Source: Aureococcus anophagefferens
Lineage: Eukaryota; Sar; Pelagophyceae; Pelagomonadales; Pelagomonadaceae
DNA length: 64,000 nt
Direction: 5' to 3'
Assembly: GCF_000186865.1 (NCBI RefSeq)
Contig: NW_008705609.1
Span: 63,193 to 127,192, forward strand
Positions within the stretch are counted from its first letter, which is position 1. The number at the start of each line of letters is the position of its first letter. Shown one piece after another: positions 24,693 to 54,580 of this stretch. A model generated the notes under the pieces. The model had not been told where the DNA came from. It saw only the letters and a list, made by a program, of their open reading frames with translations, and did no database searches. The translations under genes and the position numbers were made by a program.

Positions 24693-24742
24693 NNNNNNNN
24701 NNNNNNNNNNNNNNNNNNNNNNNNNNNNNNNNNNNNNNNNNN
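24693..24742. other. Assembly gap (50 N)
   Basis: Separates duplication copy B from the 5' LTR of the Copia element. The first ~40 bases of that LTR and its target-site duplication are hidden. Confidence 1.
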
Positions 24743-25071
24743 CAGTGAACTGCATCTTGATGTTGCAGTGCACCTTACCCCACTGCGCTCCTACTGCGTA
24801 TCCTGCTAGTTTTCCCTTCCCTTCCTTAATTCATTCTAATCCAGTTTCAAGTCTTATAGACAGCGAACTGAAGGAGTGACTGCCAAGCAGGCACAGAGTG
24901 CATAGCGCTCTTCTGTGTCTGTGGTGTCTGTCTGGTTAGCGTCACAGCGACGTGCCAGGTAGCACCAGGCTCAGCGAGGTTGCACAGTCGCCGGACAGTG
25001 CACCTGCTGGATAGTAGTTTGACTGACGTCATAGCGACGTTAGGAAGCTAGTAAACTATCCTAACTTTCTA
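24743..25071 (+). repeat. 5' LTR (start lost in gap)
   Basis: Identical to 35294-35623 except for one base. The 3' boundary CTTTCTA is fixed by comparing three copies with different flanks (25071, 35623 and the inverted fragment 42767-42789). A TGGGCCGACG that might be the primer-binding site starts at 25076, but the tRNA cannot be named. Confidence 0.9.
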
Positions 25072-25189
25072 GGTGTGGGCCGACGCTCGGCCTCCTGTGA
25101 AGCCTCGCTTCATTCTTTTCTCTTCTCTTTACCCGCTTCGCGCTCTTTTCTCTTCGCTTTCGCCTCCGCGCTTGCTTTGAGGGGGAGAG

Positions 25190-27655
25190 ATGACGTCCGA
25201 AAGTGGCGAGAAAGAGGCCGCCGAGAGACGCGTTGCAAAGCTAGTCGCGGAAGCGGCGGAAGCTGAGGACAGACGAAATGTCACTCAGAAGGAGCTCAGA
25301 GAACAGCTGGATGACACAGTTACATCTGCGCTTGAACGATTTGAGACAAGCTTCAAAGCCAGTATAGCAGAATCACTGGAGAGCGTAAAGAATGGTCTCA
25401 GGGATGAGTTTCATAGGTCACTCCCAGACTTCGGTATCATAAAGCAAGAAGCAGCCAATCTTAAGGAACAGGTGCACAACCTTAGTGACGGTCTTAACAG
25501 CCTCACAGCCAAGTTTCACGACCATGTGGATGACATAGAGAGTGCTGACCTGAAGAGGGACGCTGCACAAAAGACACACTTGCAGATACTTGAAGCAAAA
25601 CAGAAGACCGTACTAAGTGACATTAGAGGCAAAGCCTTGAAAATAAAGGGAGAGTCAGTTGACACAGAGGACATAGTCAAAACAGTATTAGCACAGATAG
25701 AACCTAGGCTCGTCACGCTAGCATCAGGTCAACAGCAGCTTCCAAGAAGTCACGGACCCGAACTTTCAACAAACGAGTTCTATGGACAGGCGCCCAAGTT
25801 TCCTCAGCATCTACTACTAAGTGACCGTACCTCACACATACACGCTGCTATAGAGGAGGGACATTACTTCAAGGTAGGTATAAACCCTGAGCTGCAACTG
25901 TCTAAGTTCAAACAGCAAAATATCAACTTCTCCCGACTAGCGGACATTGAGAAACCATGGGAAGAGTACATTTATGGTGCAGATTACTTTCATAGATATC
26001 AGCAAGAAGCCAAGAAGATAGTTTCAATCTATGATGGAGAAAGAGACATAAGTACACATGGTGGAAGAGGCTACAGCTACGTCTACATAGGCACTCAGGC
26101 AATTCTCTTTGGGAGAACAGCTTTTGATACGCTACAAGCCAGGATGAAAGAAATCCTCAAGGAGACAATCCCTCTTGAGGATGAGTCAGTGATTCCAAAG
26201 TACTCGTGCCCAGACTGGAAGGATCCGAACAAGAATCCGAACTCATCTCGATTCATGACTCAGGAACTCCATTTGGAAAACGCAGTCAGAGCTAGTAGAC
26301 TAACTCTTATTTTTTATAGGGGGAGCATGGATAGACTGAGCTCAACTAACCTCCAGTACGAGCTACTGGAAAAACATCTCGGACAGGAAGAAGTCTCAAA
26401 TGGCGTATTTCAGTGGATGCAGAAAGTAATTATAGGCGCTAATGCTGTCGGCACTGACAAGGAACTGGAAGACCTCATGAATCAACTTCTAAGTCTCGAC
26501 TATGATATTCTGTCAGGCGGCTGCGTACTGCATTGGGTAACCGCTCTGGAACGGATAGTCAATATCCTGCAAGACAAGATGGGACCTGATTTTGACAGAG
26601 AGAAACATATTGATATGCTGCACGCTAGGGCAATCAATTTCCACAAAAGACAGTTCACAGCCCAAAATGTTACTACACTATTGACCCAAGCTTCCAGAGA
26701 ATACGGTCAATTTCTAAGCCGCATGCTAGAAGCACAAAAGGTTCTACGCAACTACAGCTCCTACATGAACACCGTCAACACACTGTCCTCCAAGGATTAC
26801 CATGTTGAGACCCTGCATCTTAGGATGAAATCTTGGGACGTGTATGTAAAGCACATAAAAGAACAGGCGAATGATGTTGAATACAGTCCTGGAGCTGTTC
26901 CTGCAAATTATGAACCAGCACTAGCACAGTACCTGCCTCAGGCAGACCAGGCTCATTTAGGAGAGGACGATCTATCACCAGATCCCTATTCCACAGATTC
27001 GGATACTGATGTGGCAGCTTACGGACAGCCCTACAAGCCCGGTGCTGTTCCACAGGCGCCATCAACATACGAGGATAGAATACTCCGAGGCGGCACCAAT
27101 ATAAATAGAGCTAACCGTGATTACAATCGCAGACGATCTGGGGAAAGGGCAACAAGACCTCCACCAGGTCCGCGTGCCGTTCTGGCAAAACCAGGTACAC
27201 CAGGTGCTCTCGGCGCAGGAAAACCAGCGCCATCCATTTCCAAAGATCAACTCCTACTCCTATATGACAAATCTCTCAAAAGTATAAGGACAATGACATA
27301 TGGAAAGGCCAAAGAAAAGCTAAAGGGAATGAATTCAGATATCATCTTAAAGTACCTTGACCAAATCAACCAAATCAGTCACGAAGCACTAAGTAAGAAG
27401 TTCCAAAGTGGAAAGTATGAGGCAATGGCCGCTTGTCTGTCAGCCACCTCTAAGGTGCTTGCTGCGAACCTAAGGGAGGAACTTACCGAACGCCTCAACT
27501 TCACGCTGTCTAATGAATGCTCCAACTTCCTTGATGATGAAACACTCTGTGTATTTGCAAAGAAGAACCTTACCGAGGAGTCTGACCAAGCGTTCTTCAG
27601 TCGAGTAGCTGTCGAGCCCAGTCAGGATTTTCAACCAGGGGAGGAGTCGAATTAA
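25190..27655 (+). CDS. gag: Copia gag-like protein
   Basis: 821 codons from ATG 25190, the first ATG after the LTR. The N-terminal ~170 residues are charged and predicted coiled coil (EKEAAERRVAKLVAEAAEAE). The centre is globular without recognised motifs, and residues ~590-720 are Pro/Gly-rich and basic. No CCHC zinc knuckle is visible, as in many algal Copia gags. The pol frame is open from 27586 and overlaps the end of gag by about 70 nt in the -1 frame. A frameshift near GGATTTTCAACC, or separate initiation, would be needed to make pol. It would form the virus-like particle that packages the RNA. Confidence 0.8.
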   Translation: MTSESGEKEAAERRVAKLVAEAAEAEDRRNVTQKELREQLDDTVTSALERFETSFKASIAESLESVKNGLRDEFHRSLPDFGIIKQEAANLKEQVHNLSDGLNSLTAKFHDHVDDIESADLKRDAAQKTHLQILEAKQKTVLSDIRGKALKIKGESVDTEDIVKTVLAQIEPRLVTLASGQQQLPRSHGPELSTNEFYGQAPKFPQHLLLSDRTSHIHAAIEEGHYFKVGINPELQLSKFKQQNINFSRLADIEKPWEEYIYGADYFHRYQQEAKKIVSIYDGERDISTHGGRGYSYVYIGTQAILFGRTAFDTLQARMKEILKETIPLEDESVIPKYSCPDWKDPNKNPNSSRFMTQELHLENAVRASRLTLIFYRGSMDRLSSTNLQYELLEKHLGQEEVSNGVFQWMQKVIIGANAVGTDKELEDLMNQLLSLDYDILSGGCVLHWVTALERIVNILQDKMGPDFDREKHIDMLHARAINFHKRQFTAQNVTTLLTQASREYGQFLSRMLEAQKVLRNYSSYMNTVNTLSSKDYHVETLHLRMKSWDVYVKHIKEQANDVEYSPGAVPANYEPALAQYLPQADQAHLGEDDLSPDPYSTDSDTDVAAYGQPYKPGAVPQAPSTYEDRILRGGTNINRANRDYNRRRSGERATRPPPGPRAVLAKPGTPGALGAGKPAPSISKDQLLLLYDKSLKSIRTMTYGKAKEKLKGMNSDIILKYLDQINQISHEALSKKFQSGKYEAMAACLSATSKVLAANLREELTERLNFTLSNECSNFLDDETLCVFAKKNLTEESDQAFFSRVAVEPSQDFQPGEESN

Positions 27656-27705
27656 GCTCCCCGACAGGTGAACCAAAAGACACATGTCTGCTTATCTCTA
27701 CTGAA

Positions 27706-30700
27706 TTGTGTCTCAAACTAGAAGCCCTCAATACTCAAAACACAGACTTCACCAGCCAAGGCTGGTATAGGAACAAGGTGCGTTGCCTCTTAATTTTAGA
27801 CTCAGGCGCGACAGCACCATTTACACAAGACACCAGTCAACTAATACCCTCCACAATCAAAGAACTGAAACCACCTCGATTGGTAAAAATGGGAAGCACG
27901 ACTACCCATGCCACACATTCAGGCATTGGACTAAGTTGTCTGGTTGACGAGGCCAACCAAGGAACAGGTATAGTACAAGCTATTCAGTGGTTTGTTGTGC
28001 CAAAGTTCTATCAAGGCCTCCAACTGATGGGGATGGACAGTTACGAGCAGGCCAACTGGACACTCACGTTCCAGAAGGACACCAGATTCATGTACAGGGA
28101 CGTACCGAAACTAAAATCTGTATCGATAACTGATGTCTCAAACCCATCCAGAATGAAAGGGTTAACTAATTGGGTAAGGATACGAAGACAAAGGAACGGA
28201 CTCAAAACCATTCCGACCTCGAGTCCTAATGACTTTAATCGCCTAATCGATCTAAAGACAGGCGTTGAAATACCCAGAACAGCTCTTCAACAGGAAAGGC
28301 ATGTACTCAAATACTGCCAGGTCCTTGCAAGAGCAGGAAGTTCAGCACTGCTATGCATGGGTGCAATCGGACAACAGGCAGACGATCAGCCAGAGGAACC
28401 GCGCTCAGATAAAGGCATTGCTAAGGCGCCAGATCCTGCACCTACCGATGGACAAGATCGCGATGCAGTCGCTGAACTTAGCAAAGAGCAAACAATAGTC
28501 CGCGTTTGTCTTATCGGTCCAGGCCTGTGCACTGAAGGCACAGACGGGTTCAAGGATATGCCCGTCAAAATCGTCTCATTCATCGAGGTAGGGAAGAACT
28601 TTGAACATGCTAAGGAAACCTTTCCAAATGCACAAGCACTGAATGACATACGCAAGGTTAACGAGGACATTGAACAGGACAAACTGAACATAGTGGAGTT
28701 CGATCTACTAGTGTGCTCATTCCCTTGCTATAAAAACACTCAGTTGCGCGACGAAAACGGTGGGAACTATCACCCCTCAGGAGATCTCTTCGCGGAGGAA
28801 CAAATGAAGTTTATCAGTTTGGTCAGACCCAAACACGTGCTTAATGAGATGACCCCAACAAGAGTCGACTACTACCAGGAACACGACGCTGTTATAAAAG
28901 AGTTCAGGGCGATGAACTACTTTGTTGAGACTGATCAGGTTGACTGCTGCACCCTTGGCGATCTCCAATCGAGATTCAGATGGTTCGCACTTGCGAGTAC
29001 AAGCCCCATCAAATCGTTTGACGTGTGCAAGGACAGTGGTATGTCCTGCTTCCCGAAAGGACTGAGTCAAATATTGCAGGATGAGGATACCATTCCTGAA
29101 AGCCTGTATGTGTTTGACACTCCTGTGCAACATGCTCCCGATCTCGTTCAAACTCTCTTTAACGCATGGAAAACATCAAAGACCAACATGCTCAGCATTC
29201 TCCCTCACGAAAATGCTCTTGCCTGTGTGTTGCTTGCGTGGGTGTTCGCCAAGAAGCACAAAGAGCTGTCTCCAGCGACGATAGTGCGGAAGACAATAAC
29301 GGTTGGTTGCCATGGACCTCAACCGTACAGGTATCAAGGTCTTAAGAACCCGTCACTAGCGTTTGTGTTCACTCTGCTGGCACGCGAAATGCGACATAGG
29401 CAGAGACATGAAACCATGTTTGAGATCAAAGTCACATTCCTGCGCCCCGCACAAGGTGATGTGTACTTTGGGACAGAGCGTGATGGTCGCTTCATGTACT
29501 TTAGCTGCGTGCCAAAGGCTTCTCCTCCCGGGCCTCGCCCGGCAGACGTTGTGGCTTTCCTCAACGTTGCCTCGCCAGGCTCATGCATTTTGGCATCAGG
29601 GGGAGTGAGATATGTAGATACCAGAAATGCACTTCGGTCAAAGATAAGAGCCACACTTTGCCACTCCTACGGCAGGTTCAAAACAAATGACCCTGAACTA
29701 CGGAACAGGAAAGGCACGACAGCCTACAGGATCTCAGGGCCTGCCCCCACTATCACATCGGATTTCAACATGCTTATCGATGTGTCGAGTAGGTGCAGTC
29801 CAGAGTCTCCCGAGTACAAACATGTGCACAGATACATGACAATAAAGGAGGGATCCAGAGCCACAAGTCTCACTCCAGACGCGGAGAGCAGGCTTGAATC
29901 CCTGGACGAAGCTGAAGCGTATAAGCTACTAGGTAATGCCATTCCCCGATTCACTCTCATAGCCGTCTACATGTGCGCACACAAGCACATCACTGGCTTA
30001 GCAAGGCAGAACTCAGACAACAAGGACACAGCGTTAGACACCGCAGTATTGGACGCAACCACATTGGATCCCAAGCGGAAGTACACACTAAAACCCTCAA
30101 AGGCTCTATGGAGGAAGTGTCCTCACCCTACAAGTGAGGAATACGCTCAGGCTAAGCTAAAAGTTGATTGGTATCACACTATCACACACAGAAGCTGGGA
30201 ACTGATCGAGAATGACATCCTCATCAATGAGTCACTAGGTTTGCAACCAGGAGACACTCGAATGATGTCACCGTGCCCCATCTGTGAGGCCAACAAGGGT
30301 CAAATCCCAGTCATTCATCACAGCCCATCTTGGCATGAAAATGAAATGGGATATACGCCGTTGCAGGCTCTCATGATAGACATATGGGACAGCCCTGTCA
30401 AATCGATGCTAGACGGATTCACCTACATACTGGTATGCGTTTGCATAAGAAGCGGTCTGGTAATAGACATAGGCATGAAGAGACTTAACGCCGATCACTT
30501 CATCAACGCCATCGTTCAGGTCTACAACCAGATAAAGCTTGAGTACGGTATAACACTCAAGCTACTAGTCACAGACTCATTCTCAACGTTCAAGGATGGT
30601 GACAAAGTCTTACAGATGAAGCTGCGGTTAAACATCGAGATCGAACCATTACCCCCGTATTTACATAACTACAATTACGCCGAGAACTATATAAAGATCC

Positions 30701-33700
30701 TTCGTAATGGGGCGGTGGTACGGATACAGCAGCTGGCTGGATTGAACGTGCTTGGAAAGCCAATTGTACCAGAACAGTTCCTTCCAGAAGCATTCAGACA
30801 CATGGCATGCTCGTTAAACCAAAGTTCCAGTTCCTCCATACTGCGAAAATATGGAATCAGGACAACCCCTCGGCAACTGTGCAGTGAGTCTGGTGGAAAG
30901 GTACTTAGGGACCTACCACTGTACCCATTCGGATGCAAGGTAGACTTTGTGAACAATGTGTCTAAACTTAAGACTACAGGAAGAGGAGAGGACAGAGACA
31001 TCATGAACAAGTCAAAGTTAAAGACCACTCCAGCTATTTACTTGCACCCTGCAAACTATCACCATGAACGGTTTTCTGAACTAAAGAGCACGTCCCTGTC
31101 AGTTCTGATGCTCGTAACAAATGGGAAACCCGTCACCACAACAAACTTCAGACCAACAAGCCTGTCTAAACAAAACCAGATATACCTGAAGTCTCAAATG
31201 ACAGACCCAAACCAGGCAAACCCGTTCATACCCAAAGAACCGGACAGGACAATCCCCAGCTCTAAGCCTAACGTCGTCTTGGTACCAGGCAGCGATAGCC
31301 GCAAGGAACAACCAAAGCCAGCCGCCACATCTCAAAGGCAGGCTACACCGGTTCCTTCGACACCTCCTCCCGAACCTGACGGACAGCTGGTACTACAAGA
31401 CTCCAGGAGCAACGTTCCCTCTACACCGATACTCACAACCACACCACAGTCTAGCAGAGAACTTGTGCTACGAGACGCTAGTGACAAGGATCCATATTCA
31501 CCTATGTCTCAACTCGATCGTGATATAAACGACCAACTGTCTGGTCTCCTAAGGCGAGTATCCACGGACAGAGGCTCACCAAGAGACTTGTGGCCAGACT
31601 CACCAACAGTGATACCATCTCCTTCCTCCACTACTCAGGAACCTCCATTCACATCTTCTAGTCCCAAGGTCGGTCCCCAAAAGTTCAGGAAACCCAAAGT
31701 AGGCGACCTAATACGCATTAGAAGCAAAGATGGCGAATGGATGGGAACTCCCCCATTCAAAATCATGAGAGGAAAAACCAAGCCTCAGCTCTCTGATTCT
31801 ACTCCAGGAGCTACAGTCCAGGCCAGCGATATCCGAGTTATAAGATGGGATCCAGAAACAAAGGAAGACAGACAGTTTGACCTTAGAGAGAAACAATTCG
31901 GACCATCGTCAGATCCAAAAGCAGTCTGGCATTTCGCAAATCCAGATGGATCAGAAGCAACATCCGAAGCTCCAGCTGAATCTGTTACCATCACTCAGGT
32001 GCAGGACATGCAACCAGACGAGCACACTCCTAATGACACTTACGTCTCCTTCTTCACCAGCGCAGGATGCCCCACCAATGATTACTCTGAGGCTGCGCGG
32101 CGGATTACCACCCAGTGTGTCCCAGGGTACCGCGACAAGTTTCAACTACTAGGCATGATGGAAGCATCCCAACAATTGTCCGATCTCATGGTCGAACATA
32201 TCGCTGACATACCATGTCCGAAGGAAGAAATCATTGCAGAAAGGATGCTACAAGCTATTTTAAATGTAAATGATCGTTGCACACTTAGGCGCACAAAGGA
32301 TCGACCAAGGCGTTTCATCAAATGTAACTCGCCCAACAATATTGATCGAGCCTTAACTCCAAAGGAATATGTAGAACTAGGAGGCACCAGAAGCCAACTC
32401 CTGTATGAAGTGAGGAACAAGACAGTCGAGGTAGGTCACCCAGACGTTCAAGGTAAGTTTTGGATGAACAGCATGATAGACGGACATAGCAACCTTGACA
32501 CCGCGTTCCTCAGCTCAACTGACCTTCAGTCCTCCCAAGCCTGGGACAGAGCGGAATCTATTCTCGCCGCGGCAGACTCTGCTCACCAATTGTGGGATGT
32601 AGCCCTGGTAGGCGTCTACGACTTGATAGGGAATTATCCCACTATTGTCACCCAGTCAGGTGACTCACTTGATCACCTGTTCTCCAGTCATTTCAGTGAA
32701 GAACACGAGGAGAATGTTGAAAAGGTCCTAAATTACTGCCTTGACAACCATTCCCAGGTTCTAATAGCACTACAGATGGTAATAGAAAAGGAAACAACCA
32801 GTCAGGGTGTAACGATCAAAGAAGACGACATCGTGCTGGATGAAGAGTCCATTCTAGAACTTAAGTCAGAGCCTCTAGAACATAAGAGGGAATATCTAAA
32901 GGCCATCATGAAGGAATTCGCTGACCTGTGCAGGAACGAGTGCTTCAGTTTGGAGGTAATCCCTGAAGAACGTTCTCCAATCAGCACCAAGATTGTGCTT
33001 AAGATCAAGCGAAAGGGAGATGGCTCCTTCGACAAGTACAAGGCAAGGTGTGTAGTGCGCGGCTTCCTCGCCACAATAGGATTGGATTTCTATGCTACTT
33101 ACAGTCCAGCATCATCCATGACGACAGCACGCACTCTCATGGCCTTGGCGGTTCACCATGGACTACCAATACATCACAGCGACATTGCTCAGGCATTCAT
33201 ACAGACTACCCTGGATAGACCTATCTACATCAACTTCCCGAAAGGAGTTGACATTCGAGCAGACCTGATCAACAAAGTGCAGGAGCAGTTCCCGAACTCC
33301 AAACTGGGCATAAGACTACTTAGATCACTCTATGGATTAAAACAGGCACCAATGCTCTGGAACAAGAAACTCAACTCAGTACTTCTTGAGGCCAAGTTTG
33401 TCAGAAGTAAGAATGACACGAGTCTCTACGTCTACGAGTCTCAAGGAAAGTGGGTCGCGTGCGCAGTGTTCGTCGATGACATCCTTGTTACCGGCACCGA
33501 CACTCGCAAGATCACTGAGCTCAAGGCTTTGTTCAAGGCCAAGTTCCGTGGAGAACATCAATGGGATGAGAACATCAACTCATTCCTAGGAATGGCAGTC
33601 TACTATGACATCATGACAGGAATCCTAACCATGGACGTCAAAGCCAAGATCGATGACATGTTTGACAAATTCCCATTCTTAGGAGACACTAAGCTAGATA

Positions 33701-35088
33701 GCCGCTCTCAAAATTCACCGCACTCCGCGCTCCTGGACGACCTACCAGAGCCAGACGATGACAAACTGACGAAGTACCAAGAACTGCTGAAAGAATACTT
33801 TCCCAGAATTGTTGGCTCATGCATCTATCTGTCCATCACGTGCAGACCTGATATTTCTACTATTACGTCCAAAGCGTGCAAGGGAATGCATGGACCCAAG
33901 AAGGTGCACATACTGTACTTACAGATGCTAATTCGGTATCTGAAAGGACACCGTGACCTGGCACTTACTTACACCAAGCAGGGGAGTGGTGCTTCACTAC
34001 TATTCGCTTTGAGCGAAACCTATCCCGAACTTACCCATTTGCCTTCCAGCCCAGTGGTAGGCTTCTCTGATGCCGACTGGCTCCCTAAGGCTCAGGATGG
34101 AGAGTCAATGAAGAGTACTTCAGGTCTCTGTTTCTATTGTTTTGGAAACTTAGTACAATGGTCTTCCAAACGTCAGACAATCACTGCAGGGAGCACAATG
34201 CAAGCCGAACTCATAGCTGCCTCAAGTGGAGCGGATAGTGGAGTCTGGTACTACACTCTGCAAGTGGACTTCCCAATCCTCTTTGGTATTCAAGAGGCGC
34301 AAGCAGTGCCATTACTCATTGATAACAAAGCTGCCCTTAGTGTAGCGAACCACCCTGAATCGTCTCCTAGAACAAGACATATCTGTCTCAGAGAATTCCG
34401 CATCAGGGATTTTCACGAAGCAGGTCAAATTAGACCATATTGGTGCCCCGGCACCCATAACGTGGCCGACATGTTTACAAAAATTTTACCTAAACTTCTG
34501 TACCACAGATTCCTCGCAGTCATGGGGATGACTGGCTCAAACCTTATACACTCACCTTTTCCAGCCTTAAATGCATTACTAGCACCCCAATACGAAGACG
34601 ACATCGTTAAGGAATGCATCTGCGAAAAGGTCGACCCAGATGAAGAGAAAAGTATTTACAAGTGGATGACGTCCCACAGCTTTGACTCACAAGTAGCCAC
34701 CGCCCTATGGACACAATATAATGCCGGCGCAGACTCTGGATGGTTTGCAGAAAACTTACTAGTCCATCACTCTGTCTCACTTCTGAATCCTCAACCAAGC
34801 AATGAGAATCAAGACGGACCCAGCGCTTCAGTGAAGTCCAAACTGACTGTTGCCCGGACTCTCTATAGACAAGAGATGGCTAGAAGAGCTACTAGATTGG
34901 TGCAAGATCATCGCAGGCGTGGACTCTCTCCACCCGTTCCATACTGTCAACCTACATCTAACATAACCTCACCGTTTGTACTAACCGATCATAAGTACGC
35001 TTCCTTGGCTACTTGTATCGAATGTGTCATGTTGAGCATAGTATTTCTTTGGGTCATGAGCAATCCCCAAAGTAATCACACTGGTTGA
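27706..35088 (+). CDS. pol: Copia pol polyprotein with embedded C5-cytosine DNA methyltransferase
   Basis: 2460 codons (numbered from the TTG at 27706; open frame from 27586). Aspartic protease: LDSGA, Asp32. Methyltransferase: about residues 262-762 (see separate entry). Integrase: zinc site H824-x3-H828...C857-x2-C860, catalytic D892, D957 and E993 (D-x35-E). A Pro/Ser-rich linker covers about 1150-1350. Reverse transcriptase: Asp1826 in HSDIAQAF and the FVDD box 1922-1925. RNase H begins at GFSDADW (Asp2122). The C-terminus continues about 195 residues past RNase H and ends in a hydrophobic segment (ECVMLSIVFLWVM). All catalytic residues are present. Codon use is AT-richer than in host genes. 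Pol would be cleaved by its own protease. Whether the methyltransferase is released as a separate protein cannot be seen. Confidence 0.93.
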   Translation: MCLKLEALNTQNTDFTSQGWYRNKVRCLLILDSGATAPFTQDTSQLIPSTIKELKPPRLVKMGSTTTHATHSGIGLSCLVDEANQGTGIVQAIQWFVVPKFYQGLQLMGMDSYEQANWTLTFQKDTRFMYRDVPKLKSVSITDVSNPSRMKGLTNWVRIRRQRNGLKTIPTSSPNDFNRLIDLKTGVEIPRTALQQERHVLKYCQVLARAGSSALLCMGAIGQQADDQPEEPRSDKGIAKAPDPAPTDGQDRDAVAELSKEQTIVRVCLIGPGLCTEGTDGFKDMPVKIVSFIEVGKNFEHAKETFPNAQALNDIRKVNEDIEQDKLNIVEFDLLVCSFPCYKNTQLRDENGGNYHPSGDLFAEEQMKFISLVRPKHVLNEMTPTRVDYYQEHDAVIKEFRAMNYFVETDQVDCCTLGDLQSRFRWFALASTSPIKSFDVCKDSGMSCFPKGLSQILQDEDTIPESLYVFDTPVQHAPDLVQTLFNAWKTSKTNMLSILPHENALACVLLAWVFAKKHKELSPATIVRKTITVGCHGPQPYRYQGLKNPSLAFVFTLLAREMRHRQRHETMFEIKVTFLRPAQGDVYFGTERDGRFMYFSCVPKASPPGPRPADVVAFLNVASPGSCILASGGVRYVDTRNALRSKIRATLCHSYGRFKTNDPELRNRKGTTAYRISGPAPTITSDFNMLIDVSSRCSPESPEYKHVHRYMTIKEGSRATSLTPDAESRLESLDEAEAYKLLGNAIPRFTLIAVYMCAHKHITGLARQNSDNKDTALDTAVLDATTLDPKRKYTLKPSKALWRKCPHPTSEEYAQAKLKVDWYHTITHRSWELIENDILINESLGLQPGDTRMMSPCPICEANKGQIPVIHHSPSWHENEMGYTPLQALMIDIWDSPVKSMLDGFTYILVCVCIRSGLVIDIGMKRLNADHFINAIVQVYNQIKLEYGITLKLLVTDSFSTFKDGDKVLQMKLRLNIEIEPLPPYLHNYNYAENYIKILRNGAVVRIQQLAGLNVLGKPIVPEQFLPEAFRHMACSLNQSSSSSILRKYGIRTTPRQLCSESGGKVLRDLPLYPFGCKVDFVNNVSKLKTTGRGEDRDIMNKSKLKTTPAIYLHPANYHHERFSELKSTSLSVLMLVTNGKPVTTTNFRPTSLSKQNQIYLKSQMTDPNQANPFIPKEPDRTIPSSKPNVVLVPGSDSRKEQPKPAATSQRQATPVPSTPPPEPDGQLVLQDSRSNVPSTPILTTTPQSSRELVLRDASDKDPYSPMSQLDRDINDQLSGLLRRVSTDRGSPRDLWPDSPTVIPSPSSTTQEPPFTSSSPKVGPQKFRKPKVGDLIRIRSKDGEWMGTPPFKIMRGKTKPQLSDSTPGATVQASDIRVIRWDPETKEDRQFDLREKQFGPSSDPKAVWHFANPDGSEATSEAPAESVTITQVQDMQPDEHTPNDTYVSFFTSAGCPTNDYSEAARRITTQCVPGYRDKFQLLGMMEASQQLSDLMVEHIADIPCPKEEIIAERMLQAILNVNDRCTLRRTKDRPRRFIKCNSPNNIDRALTPKEYVELGGTRSQLLYEVRNKTVEVGHPDVQGKFWMNSMIDGHSNLDTAFLSSTDLQSSQAWDRAESILAAADSAHQLWDVALVGVYDLIGNYPTIVTQSGDSLDHLFSSHFSEEHEENVEKVLNYCLDNHSQVLIALQMVIEKETTSQGVTIKEDDIVLDEESILELKSEPLEHKREYLKAIMKEFADLCRNECFSLEVIPEERSPISTKIVLKIKRKGDGSFDKYKARCVVRGFLATIGLDFYATYSPASSMTTARTLMALAVHHGLPIHHSDIAQAFIQTTLDRPIYINFPKGVDIRADLINKVQEQFPNSKLGIRLLRSLYGLKQAPMLWNKKLNSVLLEAKFVRSKNDTSLYVYESQGKWVACAVFVDDILVTGTDTRKITELKALFKAKFRGEHQWDENINSFLGMAVYYDIMTGILTMDVKAKIDDMFDKFPFLGDTKLDSRSQNSPHSALLDDLPEPDDDKLTKYQELLKEYFPRIVGSCIYLSITCRPDISTITSKACKGMHGPKKVHILYLQMLIRYLKGHRDLALTYTKQGSGASLLFALSETYPELTHLPSSPVVGFSDADWLPKAQDGESMKSTSGLCFYCFGNLVQWSSKRQTITAGSTMQAELIAASSGADSGVWYYTLQVDFPILFGIQEAQAVPLLIDNKAALSVANHPESSPRTRHICLREFRIRDFHEAGQIRPYWCPGTHNVADMFTKILPKLLYHRFLAVMGMTGSNLIHSPFPALNALLAPQYEDDIVKECICEKVDPDEEKSIYKWMTSHSFDSQVATALWTQYNAGADSGWFAENLLVHHSVSLLNPQPSNENQDGPSASVKSKLTVARTLYRQEMARRATRLVQDHRRRGLSPPVPYCQPTSNITSPFVLTDHKYASLATCIECVMLSIVFLWVMSNPQSNHTG
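28489..29991 (+). other. C5-cytosine DNA methyltransferase domain inside Copia pol
   Basis: In standard order: motif I region CLIGPGLCTEG (GPG at 271-273), motif II-like SFIEVG, motif IV CSFPCYK with catalytic Cys341 (PC 340-341), motif VI LNEMTPT (Glu381), motif VIII LQSRFRWFALAS (Q421-x-R423-x-R425). A ~250-residue target-recognition-type region follows, then motif IX GPAPTIT (678-684) and motif X LLGNAIPRF (GNAIP 743-747). Every key residue is present except that PPC is FPC. It lies between protease and integrase zinc finger in one unbroken frame. The minus-strand relative at 35.7-38.6 kb carries the C-terminal half of the same domain, so it is an inherited part of this Copia family. Confidence 0.88.
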
Positions 35089-35242
35089 GTGTATCAATCT
35101 TTTAACTCACACATATCAAGGAAGGTCTTCTGAAGAACGTGTACTTAGCAGATACTCGATTCCCATCTACTTCATTCGCTTAATTGACTCCATTCATGAT
35201 GAAGCTGAAGTCCACTATCATTTGGGATTTACACGGAGTTTC

Positions 35243-35255
35243 AATCCAGGGGGAG
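35243..35255 (+). promoter_or_regulatory. Polypurine tract of Copia 1
   Basis: ATCCAGGGGGAG immediately precedes the 3' LTR. The same CCAGGGGGAG is found in reverse at 35650-35660 for Copia 2. Confidence 0.8.
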
Positions 35256-35623
35256 TAGAGAGATAGAGAGATTTCTATCTTCATCTTCAGTGAACAGTGA
35301 ACTGCATCTTGATGTTGCAGTGCACCTTACCCCACTGCGCTCCTACTGCGTATCCTGCTAGTTTTCCCTTCCCTTCCTTAATTCATTCTAATCCAGTTTC
35401 GAGTCTTATAGACAGCGAACTGAAGGAGTGACTGCCAAGCAGGCACAGAGTGCATAGCGCTCTTCTGTGTCTGTGGTGTCTGTCTGGTTAGCGTCACAGC
35501 GACGTGCCAGGTAGCACCAGGCTCAGCGAGGTTGCACAGTCGCCGGACAGTGCACCTGCTGGATAGTAGTTTGACTGACGTCATAGCGACGTTAGGAAGC
35601 TAGTAAACTATCCTAACTTTCTA
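35256..35623 (+). repeat. 3' LTR of Copia 1 (368 bp)
   Basis: Starts TAGAGAGATAGAGAG directly after the polypurine tract and ends CTTTCTA. The termini form TAGA...TCTA rather than the usual TG...CA. It carries promoter and polyadenylation functions for the element by analogy with other LTRs. Confidence 0.82.
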
Positions 35624-38600
35624 GATACAAAACTCTCTATCTCTCTACTCCCCCTGGATCGTAAGCCAATAATGAAGATCCATGTAGAGCATTTTTGTAC
35701 CAGAGCCTTCAAGCATATAGGACATGATATAAGATTGCACCGCAAGCTAACAATTCTACTACACGAGACAGGCGCGACCAGTCTGCAGATGGGGCGTTAG
35801 GTGTTGCAAACGAAGGGTCTACATCAACTATAGTCTGACAGGAAGGAACAGGTGGTGACAGTCCACGGCGGTGGTGATCCTGCACCAGCCTGGTAGCTCT
35901 CTTTGCCATTCCCTGCTTGTAAAGCAATTTAGCAACACTCAACTTAGCACGAGAGGACGGGGAAGAGTTGTCAGAGCCATGGTGTTCGAGGATGTTTGTG
36001 TTTACAGGACCATCGCCACAGAGATTGTACTCCTGCGGATTCAAAAATGAAGTGGAATGTAATGATACAAAATTTTTACAATAATTGTCAGGCAATTGAC
36101 CGCTCGAGGCATTCCAGTAGTCCCAGGTGTACACAGCCTGAGGGGACTCGAAGTCTAGTGACTTCCGCAACTCAAATATTATGTCCTCGTCGATGTGTGA
36201 ATTGTGAGACACCACCCACTCACTAAGCAGTCCTTCTGACATAAAGGACCTGTGTGTCCCCTGTAGTGATGGGTAGTCTGAATGCAATCGATTTGAACCT
36301 TCCATTCCCATTACATCCAAGTATCTATGAAACAATGTTTTATGTACTAACTTCGTAAATACGTCTGCAACATTATGGGTGCCAGGGCACCAGTATGGCC
36401 GTACCTGCTTGGCCTCGTGCATATCTCTTATACGGAATTCTCTCAGACAGATATGCCTTGTTCTGGGTGAGGATTCAGGATGGTTTGCGACGCTTAATGC
36501 AGCTTTATTGTCAATCATGATAGGGATAGCTGGAATATCTTGGCTCAAACCGAATAAAAATGGAAAATCGCACTGTAGAGTATGATACCACACGGCACTG
36601 TCAGCGGCCGAGGACGCGGCAATCAGCTCGGCTTGCATTGTACTGGCTGCCGTAATAGTTTGACGCTTTGAGTTCCACTGCACTAAACTACCAAATACAT
36701 AGAAACAGTGTCCGGAGGTGCTTTTCATTTGCTCTCCATCTGAGGCCTTGGGCAGCCAATCGGCATCAGAGAAACCCACTACTGGGCTACTAGGGACATC
36801 ATTCATTTCCGGAAAGGCAGCGGCCAGGGAACCAATATGACTAATGGCTTTGCTATTCTTGCGATACACAAGACTGAGGTCCCTGTGCTCCTTAAGGTAT
36901 TGAATCATGGCCTGTAAATAAAGTATGTGAATTTTCTTTGGCCCATGCATGCCTTTGCATGCTTTGGACACAATGGTGGAGAGATCAGGCCTGCAGGTGA
37001 TGGAGAAGTAGATGCAGGATCCCACTATGCTAGCGAAGTTTTCCTTCAGCTGCAGTTGATAGTCCGACAGTTCGTCATCATCTAAACTCGGAGGGTTGTC
37101 GATTTCAGATGAAGAGGTTGATTGAGACCAACGATTGCTGCTAGCTAGGAAAGGATACTTCTTAAACAAGTCATCAATCTTGGCCTTGACGTTCATAGAG
37201 AGTACACCGTCAGTATACGAGATATCCATGCCCAGGAAGGAGTTAATGTTCTCATCCCATTGATGCTCTCCTTTGAATTTCTCTTGGAACAGTTTCCGCA
37301 GCTCCGCTATTTTGCTGACGTCAGTCCCCGTCACCAAGATGTCATCAACAAATACGGCACACGCAACCCATTTACCTTCATGATGATGTATGTAGAGACT
37401 GGTATCATTCTTGCTGCGAATGAAGCCAGCTTCTAGTAAGACTGAATTCAAAAGTTTATTCCATAACATAGGTGCCTGTTTAAGGCCATACAGGGATCTG
37501 AGCAATCGGATTCCCAGCTTGGAGTCTGGAAACTTGTCCTGTATGCTTTTCAGCAAGTCAGACCTAATGTCTACACCTTTTAGGAAAGGAGATGAAAATT
37601 GGTCTATCAAGTTTGGTTTGGATAGGTAGATGATTGGTTTCATTTTCATGCCACCTGTCACTGTGTTTGGGAATTCGGATTTGACTCTGGTTTGCTTCAC
37701 AGTCTGCACAGGGACTCATCATTCGGCTGTCGCCTGGTTTTAGATCGAAACCTAGTGTGGTGCCTGCTTCAATGTCGCTTTCTATCTGTTGCCAGGATCT
37801 GTGTGTTGTCTTGTGGTAAAGGTCCACTGCGAACTTGGAATCGGCATATTCCTTAGACGTTGGGGATGGACATGGGCGCCATCCTGAAGTAGGCGCTTTG
37901 GGTGCATGCTTCTTCTTGCGGTGTTTCCTGCTGTCTGAGATGTTATCCCTTACGTCAGAAGAAGATAGTTCAGTATGAGCACCCAAACACATCAGTGGTC
38001 GAGCATGTATATGTAGGAAAGCGGACAGACTGTGTGTTGACATGTCACCTCCGAGTATGTGTGTACATACGGTGAGGTACACTGCTGTGAGCATAAACCT
38101 AGGAATTGCATTTGAAATCATTTTCCTGGCAGTCTCTTCATCCATCGACTGTAGGCGTTGTAGACAATCGGGAGTAAACGATGATGCCCTGGCAGCCTCC
38201 ACTGTGGTGAAATATCTATGGACAGGCGCGTTAGGGCTTTCATGCCTGTGAGTGACATCAATGATTACATTCATGTCACTGGTGATGGTGGGTGCCGGAC
38301 CAGATGTGAGATAACCTGTAGTACCCTTCTTCTTGTTTAAGTACGGATCGCCAGTGTGAAAACGGCTATGGCTATGACAAAGAGTTGCCCTGACATGTGA
38401 ACGCAGGTAGTTCATAGCATCCTCAAATAGGATTTCTCCCCCGGGTGCAAGGCGCGCGCTCCGCGGCCTTGCATTCATTGCGTCGACTACCTGCTGGCGA
38501 GAGACAGAAGACGAAGAGTGGGAGAGGCTACAGGTGAAGTATATTCCCTGATCGCCAGTACGGGCGCCAAAATAAATATCGCATTGGGGAGGGTCGCGCT

Positions 38601-38640
38601 GATACAGCAGCTGGAAGCTGCAGCGAAGCGACACAGAGGC
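35624..38640 (-). mobile_element. Decayed Copia element 2 (5' truncated, internally deleted)
   Basis: Minus-strand relative of Copia 1: polypurine tract at 35650-35660 and about 25 bases of its LTR (TAGAGAGATAGAGAG, reading leftward), then Copia 1's LTR begins. Protease, gag and the first half of the methyltransferase are missing on the right. The integrase core and start of RT are deleted. Confidence 0.85.
35709..38634 (-). pseudogene. Remnant Copia pol with half a methyltransferase, partial RT and RNase H
   Basis: Two overlapping frames. The first (38634-37564) holds methyltransferase motif IX (GPAPTIT), motif X as SNAIPRF (Gly lost), the integrase zinc-finger region, and then jumps directly to RT sequence (KLDRPIFISFPK). 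The second (37709-35709) continues RT with FVDDILVTG, RNase H (GFSDADW, DNKAAL) and the hydrophobic C-terminus. Compared with Copia 1, about 940 residues from integrase into RT are deleted, and one extra A in CCTAAAAGG shifts the frame. It cannot be autonomous. Confidence 0.85.
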
Positions 38641-39167
38641 CCCGGGGAATTGGCGCAGTAATAATGAGTAGATATACGCTACATGCTTACGGTGGCTCTA
38701 CTGATGTAAGGCGGTTATCGCACGGAAGAATTGCTTATGGATAAAGAGAACATCTTTTATCAGAAAGGTCTTGACAAAATGTTCTTTCTTTTTACTGCGC
38801 GATGTTACCTTTTGCCAGTGGAGGCTTTACCGGTGGTAAATTCCCTTAAGATAAGATGCTTGATTATGCTACTTCAATATATCCCCGGACTTCCTTCGGT
38901 GCTTATCAGTGACGGGCTTCTGACCGTTTAGGGCAAGCACACAGGCTTCCAGGAGCTTGTACGCAGGTTTCCTGCGATAACCTTGGGAAGTTGAGGAATT
39001 CGTGCAGGCAAGTTCGGGAATCCCCGGAGCGGCGTGCAAGGCCAGAAAGGCGCAGCACGTGCCTCGTAGACAACCATAGCAAGTTGCCTCCAATGAAGTC
39101 CAAGTTGGACTAATGTGGATCAAAACCTGACGGCTTTTGTAACTTCACATTATTGCAAAGTAGCAGT
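38641..39167. other. Intergenic, no gene seen
   Basis: AT-rich sequence between the truncated Copia 2 and the hydrolase gene. No recognisable LTR marks the right end of Copia 2, so its 5' end was lost by deletion. Confidence 0.5.
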
Positions 39168-40118
39168 TTAGTATCCATTGAGCCAAGCACTAATCGCATT
39201 ATTGACGAATCTAGGTGACTTAACATGCATCCAGTGGTCGGAGTCTACTTCGACAACTCGGCCGTGCGGGGTAGAGCGCACAAAGTCGAGCCAATGCGGA
39301 CCGAAAAAAATGGTATTAGCTTGGCGCGGCTCGCCTCGGGTCATGTTCCCCCAAAGGAAGAGGAGTGGGACACTTGCAGGTGGATACGGATGTTGAATGA
39401 AGCCTCGGTAAGATAAATTATATTCGTAAGGCCAAGAAGTCCTCCATGTGGCTCTGAGCGGTGCTGGTGCCTCCCAGTAAATTGCTGAACCAACACTCTT
39501 GCTGTCGTTTTTCTGTTGCCACGCCTCTCGATTTTGTTCTTGGTAAGTCAAGTTAAGTTTCCAACTTTCGGAAGAGACTGTACTGCCAACATCAAACGAT
39601 ATGATTTGCCTGGCAACTGCAGGATAACGATGAAGCATCTCATACCCGATTACAGAGCCCCAGTCATGGACAACAAGTGTTGGGTCCACAAGATGAGCCT
39701 CTAGCATCGTCTGGTGGATTTCAATGAGTTGCTGGGTAATTTTCAACTCCTTATCAGGATCTGCATCAGGAAAGTCAGGGTGAAAATTGGCCAAAGTCAC
39801 AGCCACACAGTAAAATGAACCATTGAAACAAAAATGTGCAAATTGTGCAGCCCACATCGCAGCGTTGTCTGGCCATCCATGGATGAAAAAAAGTGCTTTG
39901 GCTCCAGGCTCCCCGAGCTCAAGCGTCGGCAGCGTCCGTGTCTCATTGGAAACGACCTTGGCTTTGACATCGGAGCAATCTGGGTATCGCGGTTCACTTG
40001 AAGCAGGGTTTCGATAATAATACTGACAAAAGTCGACTTCAAGGAGCGAGTCCTCATGCGCATAGACCGCACACAGATGCAAGCCTAGAGTCAATAAAAT
40101 GTTCTTCCTCCTACACAT
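39168..40118 (-). CDS. Secreted alpha/beta-hydrolase, epoxide hydrolase-like
   Basis: 316 codons from ATG 40116-40118. The N-terminus is a signal peptide (ILLTLGLHLCAVYA, cleavage before HED). The oxyanion-hole motif HGWPDNAAMW, the nucleophile elbow VVHDWGSVIG (Asp nucleophile, as in epoxide hydrolases and haloalkane dehalogenases) and the late catalytic His in DSDHWMHVKSP are all present, in the spacing expected for a ~300-residue alpha/beta-hydrolase. A cap domain of about 80 residues lies between the elbow and the His. It probably hydrolyses an epoxide or related ester in the secretory pathway or outside the cell. It is an intronless frame, moderately AT-rich compared with genes at the left end. 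Confidence 0.82.
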   Translation of the reverse strand: MCRRKNILLTLGLHLCAVYAHEDSLLEVDFCQYYYRNPASSEPRYPDCSDVKAKVVSNETRTLPTLELGEPGAKALFFIHGWPDNAAMWAAQFAHFCFNGSFYCVAVTLANFHPDFPDADPDKELKITQQLIEIHQTMLEAHLVDPTLVVHDWGSVIGYEMLHRYPAVARQIISFDVGSTVSSESWKLNLTYQEQNREAWQQKNDSKSVGSAIYWEAPAPLRATWRTSWPYEYNLSYRGFIQHPYPPASVPLLFLWGNMTRGEPRQANTIFFGPHWLDFVRSTPHGRVVEVDSDHWMHVKSPRFVNNAISAWLNGY

Positions 40119-40485
40119 CCGGAACGAATAGCTGTCTTGTGTTCGCTGGCATCTGTTGCTCCAGAGGTGAAGTATTGTTGTTTGATAGGGGGCAGTTAGG
40201 ATGACTCGGAGTCCGGTTAGGGCCTACCCCACCGCCCTAGCTACCTAGAAAAGATAGGACAACGATTTTAGTCAATTTTTTTTCGCGATATGAAGACGGA
40301 TCCATGAAGCTGTCGCAGTCAGGATTCATATAGTGGAGACGTCCAGCCAAGACATGGACAGGACATAGGGACAATCATCATCCAAGACAACGCAACGCGT
40401 CTATCGGAAAACCTGCAAACCGAACGGATCACCGAGCCACAACACAAACTTTACCAGTAGATACGAAAAAGAAAAAGGATATACC
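40119..40485. other. Intergenic, no gene seen
   Basis: Upstream region of the hydrolase. It must hold that gene's promoter, but no motif can be assigned. Confidence 0.4.
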
Positions 40486-40642
40486 GTGTTAGAATCCGAG
40501 TATGCTAGTATGAAGCACCAGCATAGTATAGCACGAGCATAGCCAGTATAAGGCAGACTTAGCATAGCCAGCATAGGCCAGTATGAACGTCCCAGCATAG
40601 GGGGGATAGCCCGAGTATGCTAGTTTAAAGCACCAGCATAGT
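40486..40642. repeat. Dispersed GCATAG repeat, copy 2
   Basis: GTGTTAGAATCCGAGTATGC onward matches copy 1 at 13800 and adds AGTATGAACGTCCCAGCATA. It continues on the far side of the MITE at 41028, which suggests the MITE inserted into a pre-existing repeat. Confidence 0.85.
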
Positions 40643-41027
40643 ATCTTTTCGAACTAATCCTTACAAAACTTACCATCTCCTATGCGCCAAACGCTCTCCG
40701 TAGCGCGAAAATGCCTGACTGCAAGTCAGGTAAAACTCCCCGGTTGGGGGAACGTTGGGGGAACCTCTCTGAGCATGGTGGTCCAACGATCACTGACGCG
40801 TTGGGCATGTTCTGCCTGATGGGGGGAGAAAATGAGAGCACTTTGCCGTTGGAACTCGGGGTCGGAGGCCTAACTTCAGTCCGTGTCGCGGGGGAACACG
40901 CAGAAGCCGAGATCCCTCCTGCTCGCCCCCTCAGCGCCGCACCGTGACGACGCGCCCACCGTGGCAGGGATACGCCAGGACCACTTGGATACGGTGCCAA
41001 GTTTTGTAAGGATTAGTTCGTTAAGAT
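40643..41027. mobile_element. MITE-like element with ~29-bp terminal inverted repeats
   Basis: ATCTTTTCGAACTAATCCTT followed by ACAAAACTT at the left (40643-40671) is inverted at 40999-41027 with two mismatches. The 385-bp interior holds no transposase. It contains a copy of the sequence seen as an inverted repeat at 7455-7760, and a segment resembling the anticodon and T arms of tRNA-Cys (CCTGACTGCAAGTCAGG at 40714-40730, loop anticodon GCA, then CTCCCCGGTTGGGGG). Confidence 0.65.
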
Positions 41028-41245
41028 GGCATGAGCATAGCCAGTATAAGGCAGAATTAGCATAGCCAGCATAGGCCAATATGAACGTCCCAGCATAGGG
41101 AGGATAGCATAGTCCCGAGTTAGGGTAGCATAGCCCAAGGAGCGGCATGTAGGCTCGCTAGGTGGCTGGCTCATCGCCAAGCGCACTTTGGTTTTCTTAA
41201 TCACACTCGCGTTCTGACCTCGATAGTCGCCATTCTTCAGACCAG
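41028..41245. repeat. Dispersed GCATAG repeat, copy 3, with 3' extension
   Basis: AGCATAGCCAGTATAAGGCAG is followed by AAGGAGCGGCATGTAGGCTC, CGCCAAGCGCACTTTG and TCACACTCGCGTTCTGAC. The same order recurs at 50115-50275. Confidence 0.85.
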
Positions 41246-41505
41246 TGTGTTACCCATACTAAAATCCGACACTTACTACCCAATATTTTTTGCTTCAATT
41301 GTAGCGTTTGCTCTGATATGCGCAAATGATATATTGTTAATATAAATTCTACGCTTATCATCCCAAATAGCGCAGGCGCTATAGCGATAGCGCAATCTCC
41401 TTAGGGTGCTACCTTCAGAGTTTCCTTGGCTGAGGTACTAAACCACTCTCCGAAAACGGTGCCTCCGACAACCAGGAGACGGCACTCGCCGGCGTCTGTC
41501 GACGG

Positions 41506-41555
41506 NNNNNNNNNNNNNNNNNNNNNNNNNNNNNNNNNNNNNNNNNNNNNNNNNN
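41506..41555. other. Assembly gap (50 N)
   Basis: Lies just upstream of the zf-PARP/HSF gene and probably hides its first exon. Confidence 1.
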
Positions 41556-41619
41556 GAAGTGTAGGGAGCGAAGTTGCCGTTGTGCGATTGCCCGTGGTAC
41601 GCCTCGTATCGGCAGAAAG

Positions 41620-42258
41620 ATGAAATGTTCAAAAACAAGCTGGTATCATGTTGAGTGCATCTTTGAGCAATTCTTGCGAGGGTCGTGGCAACGAAAGACA
41701 ATTACGACGCTCAATGACGTGAAAAATATTCATGTGCTCACTCTCGAGCAAAAGTCTCAGCTACAGCGTCTGATTCAAGATCACAAGCGAACTAGATGCC
41801 ATCCTAAATTGATTCCGGGCTGTTCCTCAAAAAAAGAATTCGGTCCACGACTGTATGCAGCAGTCACTCAGCTTGAAGCCCATTTAATTTCCTGGAACTC
41901 TGGAAACCTAATAATCCCCCTCCCTCCTTCTGCACTTCTCGAAGCGATGCCGACCTACTTTCGTCATCGCAGATTGGAATCATTTCAGCGCCAGCTCACA
42001 AATTTTGGCTTCAAGAAAAACTACGCCGAAAGCTCCACTGACGTTTGTGTTTACACCAGAGGGGACATGCGCGGGTTGCCCAAGGAAGCCCTCTTGCATC
42101 TGGGCCATGGTGACATGACACGTGACATAACCATGTCTACAGGTGACACGAGTTGTGCATTCATAACAGAGTCACAAGACTCGACAAACGAATGCATCAT
42201 AGCCGCTAAATTGTTAGTTTCCTCACTCAGTCTTTCCCATCAGCAAAAGCACTCGTAG
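41620..42258 (+). CDS. HSF-type DNA-binding protein with part of a PARP-type zinc finger
   Basis: 212 codons from ATG 41620. Residues 8-55 (WYHVECIFEQFLRGSWQRKT...ITTLNDVKNI) match the C-terminal half of a PARP-type zinc finger, including its H-x2-C pair. The CxxC half would be encoded upstream, in or before the 50-N gap. Residues ~70-150 form an HSF DNA-binding domain: FGPRLYAAV, ISWNSGNLIIP, then MPTYFRHRRLESFQRQLTNF-GFKK, the recognition-helix region. HSF proteins are greatly expanded in diatoms and relatives. The zinc finger would recognise DNA ends or nicks in PARP-like proteins, so the combination suggests a stress or DNA-damage transcription factor (inference). The gene is partial at the 5' end. 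Confidence 0.75.
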   Translation: MKCSKTSWYHVECIFEQFLRGSWQRKTITTLNDVKNIHVLTLEQKSQLQRLIQDHKRTRCHPKLIPGCSSKKEFGPRLYAAVTQLEAHLISWNSGNLIIPLPPSALLEAMPTYFRHRRLESFQRQLTNFGFKKNYAESSTDVCVYTRGDMRGLPKEALLHLGHGDMTRDITMSTGDTSCAFITESQDSTNECIIAAKLLVSSLSLSHQQKHS

Positions 42259-54031: not shown

Positions 54032-54580
54032 TACTTGTGCGGCATTGCAACGCGTTTCTCCGAGGCCCGCAATCCTTGTTCGCTAAGTGACGCCCGGGGG
54101 GCAATACGATTCAAGCACCACTCTGGAACGAGTGGCTCTGAGCTTTTGTCCGAAGCCCTTCATTATTTTTGTTGCAGAGATATTTTTGAACGAGTGGCTC
54201 TGGGGCGTCGCCCCATGTCCGAAAATGCATCAAAAGTGCTGCAACAAAAATCGGGTGGCCAGGAAACTTTGCCCCGACGTTTGAATGGTATTGCCCCCCC
54301 GTCAAGTGAGAGTACCTGGTTTTGATAGCCATCTTACCATTCTCCATTCCTTCCACCTGCAGTCGTACACAACTGGAGGCTCCGTTCACGGTCGCAACTC
54401 CGGAGTGGTGCGTTTTTAATTCGCGCTTCGGCGGGAGGGGTGCGAGGGCTGGGCGGGCTGGGGTTAGTTTGATTCCAAATCCCAGGTGCTTCCAAGGCTA
54501 TCCATAAAGGTAAGGTTCTCCACCAAATAAATCGAACAAAATGATGCAACAGACCGACAGTAGAGACGCACCTGCCAAAT
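54032..54580. other. Intergenic, no gene seen
   Basis: Contains the phrase GAACGAGTGGCTCTG twice (54126, 54189) and GTTGCA...AAAAAT words in inverse orientation. No coding signal. Confidence 0.5.

Follow-up and report, generated by a model that had tools for sequence, protein, structure and literature searches.

Cytosine methylation is usually done by hosts to transposons; why, then, would a retrotransposon carry a cytosine methyltransferase of its own in the middle of its polyprotein? The question is posed by a 64,000-nucleotide stretch of the genome of the alga Aureococcus anophagefferens (NCBI RefSeq assembly GCF_000186865.1, contig NW_008705609.1, positions 63,193 to 127,192, forward strand; hereafter the window), which holds a Ty1/Copia retrotransposon with a 2460-residue pol open reading frame (ORF). 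A preliminary description had read from motifs a complete C5-cytosine methyltransferase (C5-MTase) between the protease and the integrase of this polyprotein. We found the ORF as described, with every motif exactly where it had been placed (GPG, Cys341, Glu381, QxRxR, GPAPTIT and GNAIP, then the integrase zinc finger; Table 1). The analyses below support a complete-looking C5-MTase at this position of a Copia pol, and the domain is almost certainly a member of that family.

Profile searches place the region among the C5-MTases. Pfam PF00145 (DNA_methylase) matches pol residues 281-432 at E 2.3e-10, scoring 40.9 bits where the cut-off is 22 (45.7 bits for the isolated domain) and spanning profile positions 16-163 of 324; NCBIfam dcm matches the same place at E 1.6e-5, its 24.7 bits falling short of the 100.65 set as cut-off for this model. 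When the window family (lineage A) was aligned together with a divergent Copia lineage of the same genome (lineage B) and compared by hhalign with one host and three bacterial C5-MTases, the probability was 80 (E 1.4e-5), over motifs IV-VIII only. Motif IV reads FPC, which the preliminary description had counted as a deviation from PPC; because M.HhaI also has FPC in our alignments, this is an ordinary form and no defect, and it is motif I that diverges instead. Motifs IX and X are weak by score and clear in alignment: residues 690-748 align to M.HaeIII at E 0.42-0.52 as a single sequence and at 0.022 as a family profile, and both motifs are conserved in A2, a sibling of the window family. On the C-terminal half, PF00145 matches five of the six members of one of our alignments (E up to 0.1), and therefore at least one of the two that hold only C-terminal sequence. 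A Foldseek search with an AlphaFold model built from the window and bacterial and phage rows returned C5-MTases as the best 50 of 197 matches (E up to 0.001), a partly circular result in that the input itself held C5-MTases. Membership in DNMT5 was considered and rejected: the window pol contains no SNF2 domain, and the genome has a separate DNMT5. No DNMT3 appeared among the sequence matches in the PDB, and our 14-row tree contained no DNMT3 reference.

Searching the genome (49.05 Mb in 86 contigs, cited here by our own labels) with the methyltransferase protein yielded at least 17 matches. The window and contig C41 match at 100%, C29 at 94% and a fragment on C1 at 98%; A2 on C49 and C41 matches at 46-51%, and lineage B on C31 (two pieces), C46, C63 and C62 at 31-33%, C62 being placed in lineage B by match range only, with short pieces besides. 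The C41 copy differs from the window at 2 of 7818 bases and shares 461 bp of right flank at 100%, the left flanks being unlike, and we regard it as one insertion represented on two contigs, not as a second event. At C41:6500-18500, the differing left flank and the N gaps mark either a haplotype copy or a scaffolding problem. The C29 copy is a separate insertion (about 90% DNA identity, 5'-truncated, with an internal deletion), and the motifs of the preliminary description recur in it, the domain being 94% identical. That an assembly join brought a host methyltransferase exon into the pol frame, or that the motifs coincide by accident, is scarcely credible: N gaps do lie beside the 5' long terminal repeat (LTR) and in the C41 copy, but the window frame is uninterrupted, C41 is identical across the domain, C29 is independent, the arrangement recurs in four lineages and the Pfam match stands at E 2.3e-10. 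We accordingly rejected both. The ordered motif set appeared in 0 of 20,000 composition shuffles of the polyprotein, a weak control in that the pattern was written after the motifs had been seen.

At least four Copia lineages (A, B, C and D) share the order protease, C5-MTase, integrase, the protease and the integrase or zinc finger of C and D being read by motif. The pol of lineage B (C31) runs collinear with that of the window element, at 37% identity in reverse transcriptase (RT; E 8.5e-103), 25% in the N-terminal part of the methyltransferase (E 1.5e-11) and 26% across motifs IX-X and integrase (E 4e-19). It carries APCQ, SEMT, QHRDR and ANAVP in order ahead of the zinc finger, a DTGS protease motif in an upstream overlapping frame, and matches to PF00145 (E 1.5e-7), rve (E 6e-4, below cut-off) and RVT_2 (E 3e-46). 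Another lineage B copy, on the minus strand at C41:18185, has its protease and methyltransferase replaced by unrelated, charge-rich sequence that is fused in frame before the zinc finger. In lineage C (C1 and C50; 68-72% GC), DGGS, EIFAG, VECQ, ENV, GDGVTD, AVCK and YVDD follow one another, motif IV thus reading VEC; PF00145 (E 2e-13) and RVT_2 (E 3e-27) match within one ORF, and no integrase (rve) profile match was found. Lineage D (C4) shows DGGA, ELFAG, FPCQ, ENV, GNAI and CRCK, then integrase-like sequence (rve E 0.18), with an N gap at the expected RT position. Between lineages C and D, identity is 30% across 936 residues (E 7.5e-81). A and C are 24% identical in RT (E 5e-18), with no detectable similarity between their methyltransferases, and hhalign of A/B against C/D gave 0.2%. 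A survey of the genome for RVT_2 returned at least 14 matches, among them three in A, two in A2, four in B, two in C, one C/D-like fragment and one on C35, with C34:222005 unplaced. We saw no Copia copy with an intact protease-integrase interval that lacked the methyltransferase, fragments not being judgeable.

The domain has also been held under selection. Between the window and C29, the ratio of non-synonymous to synonymous substitution rates (dN/dS) is 0.07 over the whole methyltransferase (bootstrap 0.043-0.106, 512 codons), made up of 0.031 in motifs I-VIII, 0.106 in the variable region and 0.136 (0.02-0.497) in motifs IX-X. The integrase stands at 0.032, the protease-side spacer at 0.258 and the stretch after the integrase at 0.181. 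In the window family, then, the methyltransferase is constrained about as tightly as the integrase. Synonymous divergence (dS) is uneven within the domain (0.889 in motifs I-VIII against 0.106 in IX-X), which hints at recombination and leaves the sub-region ratios rough. RT is deleted in C29, and window against A2 is saturated at synonymous sites. Two closer pairs, C1/C50 in lineage C (0 synonymous and 6 non-synonymous differences) and C31/C46 in lineage B (3 and 6), are too close for dN/dS and on their own give no sign of constraint. Because four lineages share the slot and selection in the window family is as strong as on the integrase, these data suggest that self-methylation has repeatedly been useful to retrotransposition in some algae.

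The element that carries the domain spans 24743-35623, wider than the ORF first described, and is confirmed as a young Ty1/Copia retrotransposon: it has an RVT_2 reverse transcriptase with the integrase upstream of it, and an LTR pair with a short target-site duplication. A repeat search detected the LTR pair, whose ends were fixed on C41, in the same insertion. There, GATAC stands before TAGAGAG at the left end and TTTCTA before GATAC at the right, which gives an LTR of 368 bp and a target duplication of 5 bp. In the window, an assembly gap (50 N at 24693-24742) hides 39 bases at the start of the 5' LTR. The two LTRs differ at 1 of 330 compared bases (24849 A against 35401 G, that is, CA against CG), and by this measure and the 5-bp duplication the element moved recently. 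Its gag-like ORF has 17 matches within its own genome; no CCHC knuckle and no Pfam match above cut-off was found in it. The TTG start of the pol ORF is mechanical, the frame being already open from 27586 and overlapping gag, and no X XXY YYZ slippery site was found in the overlap. We take DSGAT to be the protease active site, and GFSDADW and LSVANH presumably belong to RNase H. The integrase core gives a weak PF13358 match, below cut-off, and is collinear with the lineage B integrase.

Table 1. Features of the window element and of the adjoining A2 sibling (window coordinates; residues are those of the pol ORF).
Feature	Position	Strand	Basis
5' LTR, visible part (LTR positions 40-368)	24743..25071	+	repeat search, C41 comparison
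gag-like ORF, 821 aa	25190..27655	+	
Overlap of gag end and open pol frame, 70 bases; pol in -1 frame	27586..27655	+	
pol ORF, 2460 aa: protease, methyltransferase, integrase, RT, RNase H	27706..35088	+	
Protease motif DSGAT, residues 32-36	27799..27813	+	motif reading
C5-MTase domain, residues 262-762, between protease and integrase zinc finger	28489..29991	+	PF00145, dcm, alignments, dN/dS
Motif I GPG, residues 271-273	28516..28524	+	motif reading, alignment
Motif IV FPC, residues 339-341, catalytic Cys341	28720..28728	+	motif reading, alignments
Motif VI NEM, residues 380-382, Glu381	28843..28851	+	motif reading, alignment
Motif VIII QSRFR (QxRxR), residues 421-425	28966..28980	+	motif reading, alignment
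Variable region VIII-IX, residues 441-660	29026..29685	+	inferred from position; dN/dS 0.106
GPAPTIT (678-684) through motif IX-X HRYMTIKEGSR...GNAIP (743-747)	29737..29946	+	alignment to M.HaeIII
Integrase HHCC zinc finger (WYHTITHRSWEL 822-833, CPIC 857-860)	30169..30285	+	motif reading
Integrase core segments LMIDIW, LLVTDSF, YAENYIKI (DDE)	30370..30699	+	motif reading
Reverse transcriptase RVT_2, residues 1744-1989	32935..33672	+	Pfam E 1.5e-40
RNase H segments GFSDADW ... LSVANH	34060..34353	+	motif reading
Polypurine tract AGGGGGAG	35248..35255	+	sequence
3' LTR, 368 bp, TAGAGAG...TTTCTA	35256..35623	+	
Target-site duplication GATAC, 5 bp	35624..35628	+	left copy seen beside same element, contig C41
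A2 sibling: RT/RNase H, 62% identical to window element	35712..37715	-	
A2 sibling: methyltransferase C-terminal part (PAPTIT, motif IX, NAIP) into integrase zinc finger	37567..38697	-	

What might the enzyme do for the element? The best explanation, in our view somewhat better than an even bet, is that the element would methylate its own cDNA, and we lean to the same degree towards cDNA as the main substrate; methylation of cDNA has been proposed for DNMT-bearing retrotransposons (PMC5890265; for this and the other cited reports, our statements cover the accessible part of the text). Gag-Pol would be packaged into particles, where the protease would free the methyltransferase, alone or joined to the integrase, and the enzyme would methylate cytosines of the double-stranded cDNA before or at integration. 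A new copy would then arrive already methylated, carrying a mark that the host DNMT5, elsewhere a maintenance-type enzyme, could copy. Such a mark could be kept in this host, because DNMT5 has been linked to heavy linker methylation in Aureococcus (PMC9998398). The insert would be taken for host DNA and come to rest in methylated host chromatin, and would not be treated as foreign.

C5-MTases include an RNA enzyme, DNMT2, and there is a small chance that the substrate is RNA (the genomic RNA or the primer tRNA), methylated in the DNMT2 manner. Our family profile matches Entamoeba 3qv2, which we take to be a DNMT2 homologue, at E 0.04, nearly equal to the 0.022 of M.HaeIII, and DNMT2 chains are among the best 50 of the 197 Foldseek rows. 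In other C5-MTases the target-recognition domain sits between motifs VIII and IX, and against an RNA substrate stand the roughly 220 residues found at this place of target recognition in DNA enzymes (a matter of position only) and the first rank of M.HaeIII, a DNA enzyme; these points do not decide the substrate. RNA has also been suggested as the target of SymbioLINE-Dnmt (PMC5890265). Host chromatin is an unlikely main substrate as well: the enzyme would act in the nucleus, either around the integration site or across the whole genome, and would guide insertion or change silencing, with the element's own cDNA secondary. The methyltransferase adjoins the integrase in all four lineages and could travel with it, and genome-wide effects have been raised for Symbiodinium; however, the elements here are few (at least 14 RVT_2 matches) against the hundreds of DNMTs of that genus (PMC5890265).

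For methylation of the element's own cDNA, base composition offers a possible footprint. The observed-to-expected ratio of CpG is 0.64 in lineage A, with an excess of TpG/CpA in the window element, whereas adjoining window sequence of lower GC gives 1.00-1.02 and host loci (about 70% GC) give 1.3-1.4; the ratio is 0.65 in A2, the C35 Copia and a neighbouring DIRS-like element, and 0.77-0.89 in B. The low-GC elements are thus CpG-depleted, with the methyltransferase not shown as the cause. CpG depletion was rejected as proof of self-methylation, since elements with and without the enzyme differ inconsistently.

Several observations weigh against an active enzyme that serves the element in this way. 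Motif I has diverged both in A (LIGPGL against LFxGxGG) and in B (MYGIHTE) and, alignable nonetheless, does not assure binding of S-adenosylmethionine; motif X is degraded in lineage C. AlphaFold2 gave poor models, with a mean predicted local distance difference test score (pLDDT) of 32 for pol 256-800 from a two-row alignment and of 47 for the model used with Foldseek. In lineage B the methyltransferase is constrained, less tightly than the integrase (C31 against C63: 0.17 in the C-terminal part of the methyltransferase, 0.081 in the integrase). Three copies, C35, C41:18185 and C6, have RT and no methyltransferase in the stretch read, their protease-integrase interval being absent or partly replaced; in C35, the stretch from gag to RT shows neither protease nor methyltransferase nor integrase. 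CpG depletion does not follow the presence of the enzyme, lineages C and D standing at about 1.3 and the C35 Copia being depleted like A. Between the window and C29, transitions at CpG are in modest excess (71/622 CpG against 225/3169 other C/G), and transversions are up as well (11/622 against 36/3169). The SymbioLINE and Gypsy domains gave no methylation in yeast, a result called inconclusive there (PMC5890265).

The divergence of motif I in both lineages, and of motif VI from ENV to EMT, would fit a relict that has lost catalysis and is retained to bind nucleic acid or to serve as a scaffold in the polyprotein. We regard this as quite improbable: the catalytic Cys, the Glu and QxRxR are kept in the window, C29, C31 and C46 copies, and so across A and B despite about 75% of positions differing there, and dN/dS is lowest in the catalytic half. 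We judge the methyltransferase to be probably active.

The genome has other methyltransferases as well, and a PF00145 scan of it gave 13 matches, including C34:351810 (three stops), C24:379390 and C5:304833. Directly to the right of the window, the DIRS-like ORF at C49:127000-131691 encodes a C5-MTase together with RT, RNase H and an end that resembles a recombinase, these last three being identified by eye; a second class of retroelement with a C5-MTase thus adjoins the Copia element. Its methyltransferase (GPSCKAFSGAG) matches M.HhaI at E 1e-4, and PF00145 at 20.6 bits in the whole protein, just below cut-off, and 24.4 bits in the genome scan. A DNMT5-like gene at L020:2511-8501 encodes C5-MTase and SNF2 in one open frame of 1997 residues. 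Two high-GC C5-MTase genes lie outside retroelement frames, one at L016:2767-4305 (M.HhaI at E 9e-21 over the whole methyltransferase length) and one at L017:2092-3315 on the minus strand (N-terminal part only, profile 1-72 of 324). Long ORFs on L014 and L015 had no Pfam match.

The best solved-structure match of the lineage D and DIRS-like methyltransferases is bacterial M.HhaI, and A and B resemble bacterial C5-MTases by profile only. In a tree of 14 methyltransferase cores, A and B group together (98/95), with long branches flagged and the remainder unresolved; holding the methyltransferases of lineages A-D as one clade was not rejected (p-AU 0.211). A single ancient capture and independent captures at one slot would both fit. 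Viral contigs scanned with the methyltransferase and with RT/RNase H contained no relative, and with the C/D alignment the sole match there was a phage C5-MTase (32% identity across about 115 residues).

The A2 sibling occupies 35629-42803 of the window on the minus strand, opposite in orientation and internally deleted. The window element seems to sit at the start of the A2 3' LTR, because an inverted polypurine tract lies beside its 3' LTR and a 37-base match to the LTR end lies at 42767-42803. An alpha/beta hydrolase ORF (39168-40118) stands between the A2 LTR end and the A2 methyltransferase remnant, and two ABC transporter ORFs (51080-56578, minus strand) occupy the lower-GC part of the window. 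Light-harvesting proteins have 75 matches in the genome. For one of these, the best PDB match was LHCI, and a fucoxanthin chlorophyll a/c protein followed among further LHCI chains of that entry.

Elements that bring their own enzyme reverse the usual direction, in which the host methylates the transposon, and may mark their own DNA and not merely be silenced by the host. A wider reading is possible, and we offer it tentatively: in the Copia elements of this alga the C5-MTase may be a standard pol domain, fixed once or captured repeatedly in parallel to the DIRS-like element, the elements supplying de novo methylation that DNMT5 maintains. If so, the transposons would write some of the host's methylome. 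Related elements with and without the domain coexist in one genome, which makes the purpose of self-methylation testable. A 2011 survey by Iyer and others reportedly described links between DNMTs and RT, and may include sequences of this kind. No Copia with a C5-MTase was found in the titles and abstract openings of the literature searched, most subscription journals and supplements lying outside that scope.

Retrotransposon-borne DNMTs are known from LINE, DIRS and Gypsy elements in two host groups (PMC5890265, 2018), and the preliminary description was right to recall them from dinoflagellates and a charophyte. The Symbiodinium Copia is said there, in the accessible text, to lack "any DNMT domain". 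The window family shares with those elements a C5-MTase in the coding region, several copies and purifying selection. SymbioDIRS-Dnmt3 of Symbiodinium, with domains that carry out de novo CG methylation in yeast, is likewise an algal element with a C5-MTase inside the Pol ORF under purifying selection, but it has a tyrosine recombinase, DIRS order and a Dnmt3-type enzyme (PMC5890265), whereas the window element is a Ty1/Copia with a DDE-type integrase; the nearer structural match to SymbioDIRS-Dnmt3 is the DIRS-like element beside the window. KnitGypsy-Dnmt3 of Klebsormidium nitens is also an LTR retrotransposon with a C5-MTase in Pol, unlike ours in its Gypsy domains with DIRS-like repeats, its Dnmt3-related enzyme and its other host group, and SymbioLINE-Dnmt, an orphan-type C5-MTase borne by a retrotransposon, is encoded by a LINE, in an ORF that precedes the RT ORF, and not in a Copia pol (PMC5890265). 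The ParB-MTase genes of algal DNA transposons, as far as the accessible text describes them, are again a case of a transposon carrying its own DNA methyltransferase, but in a DNA transposon, as a separate gene and of predicted N4-cytosine/N6-adenine type (PMC12477816). M.HaeIII and M.HhaI, finally, share motifs IV, VI, VIII, IX and X and their order with the window domain, M.HhaI including its FPC, but they are free-standing enzymes of 324-331 residues, whereas the Copia domain, mainly through its variable region, extends to about 500.

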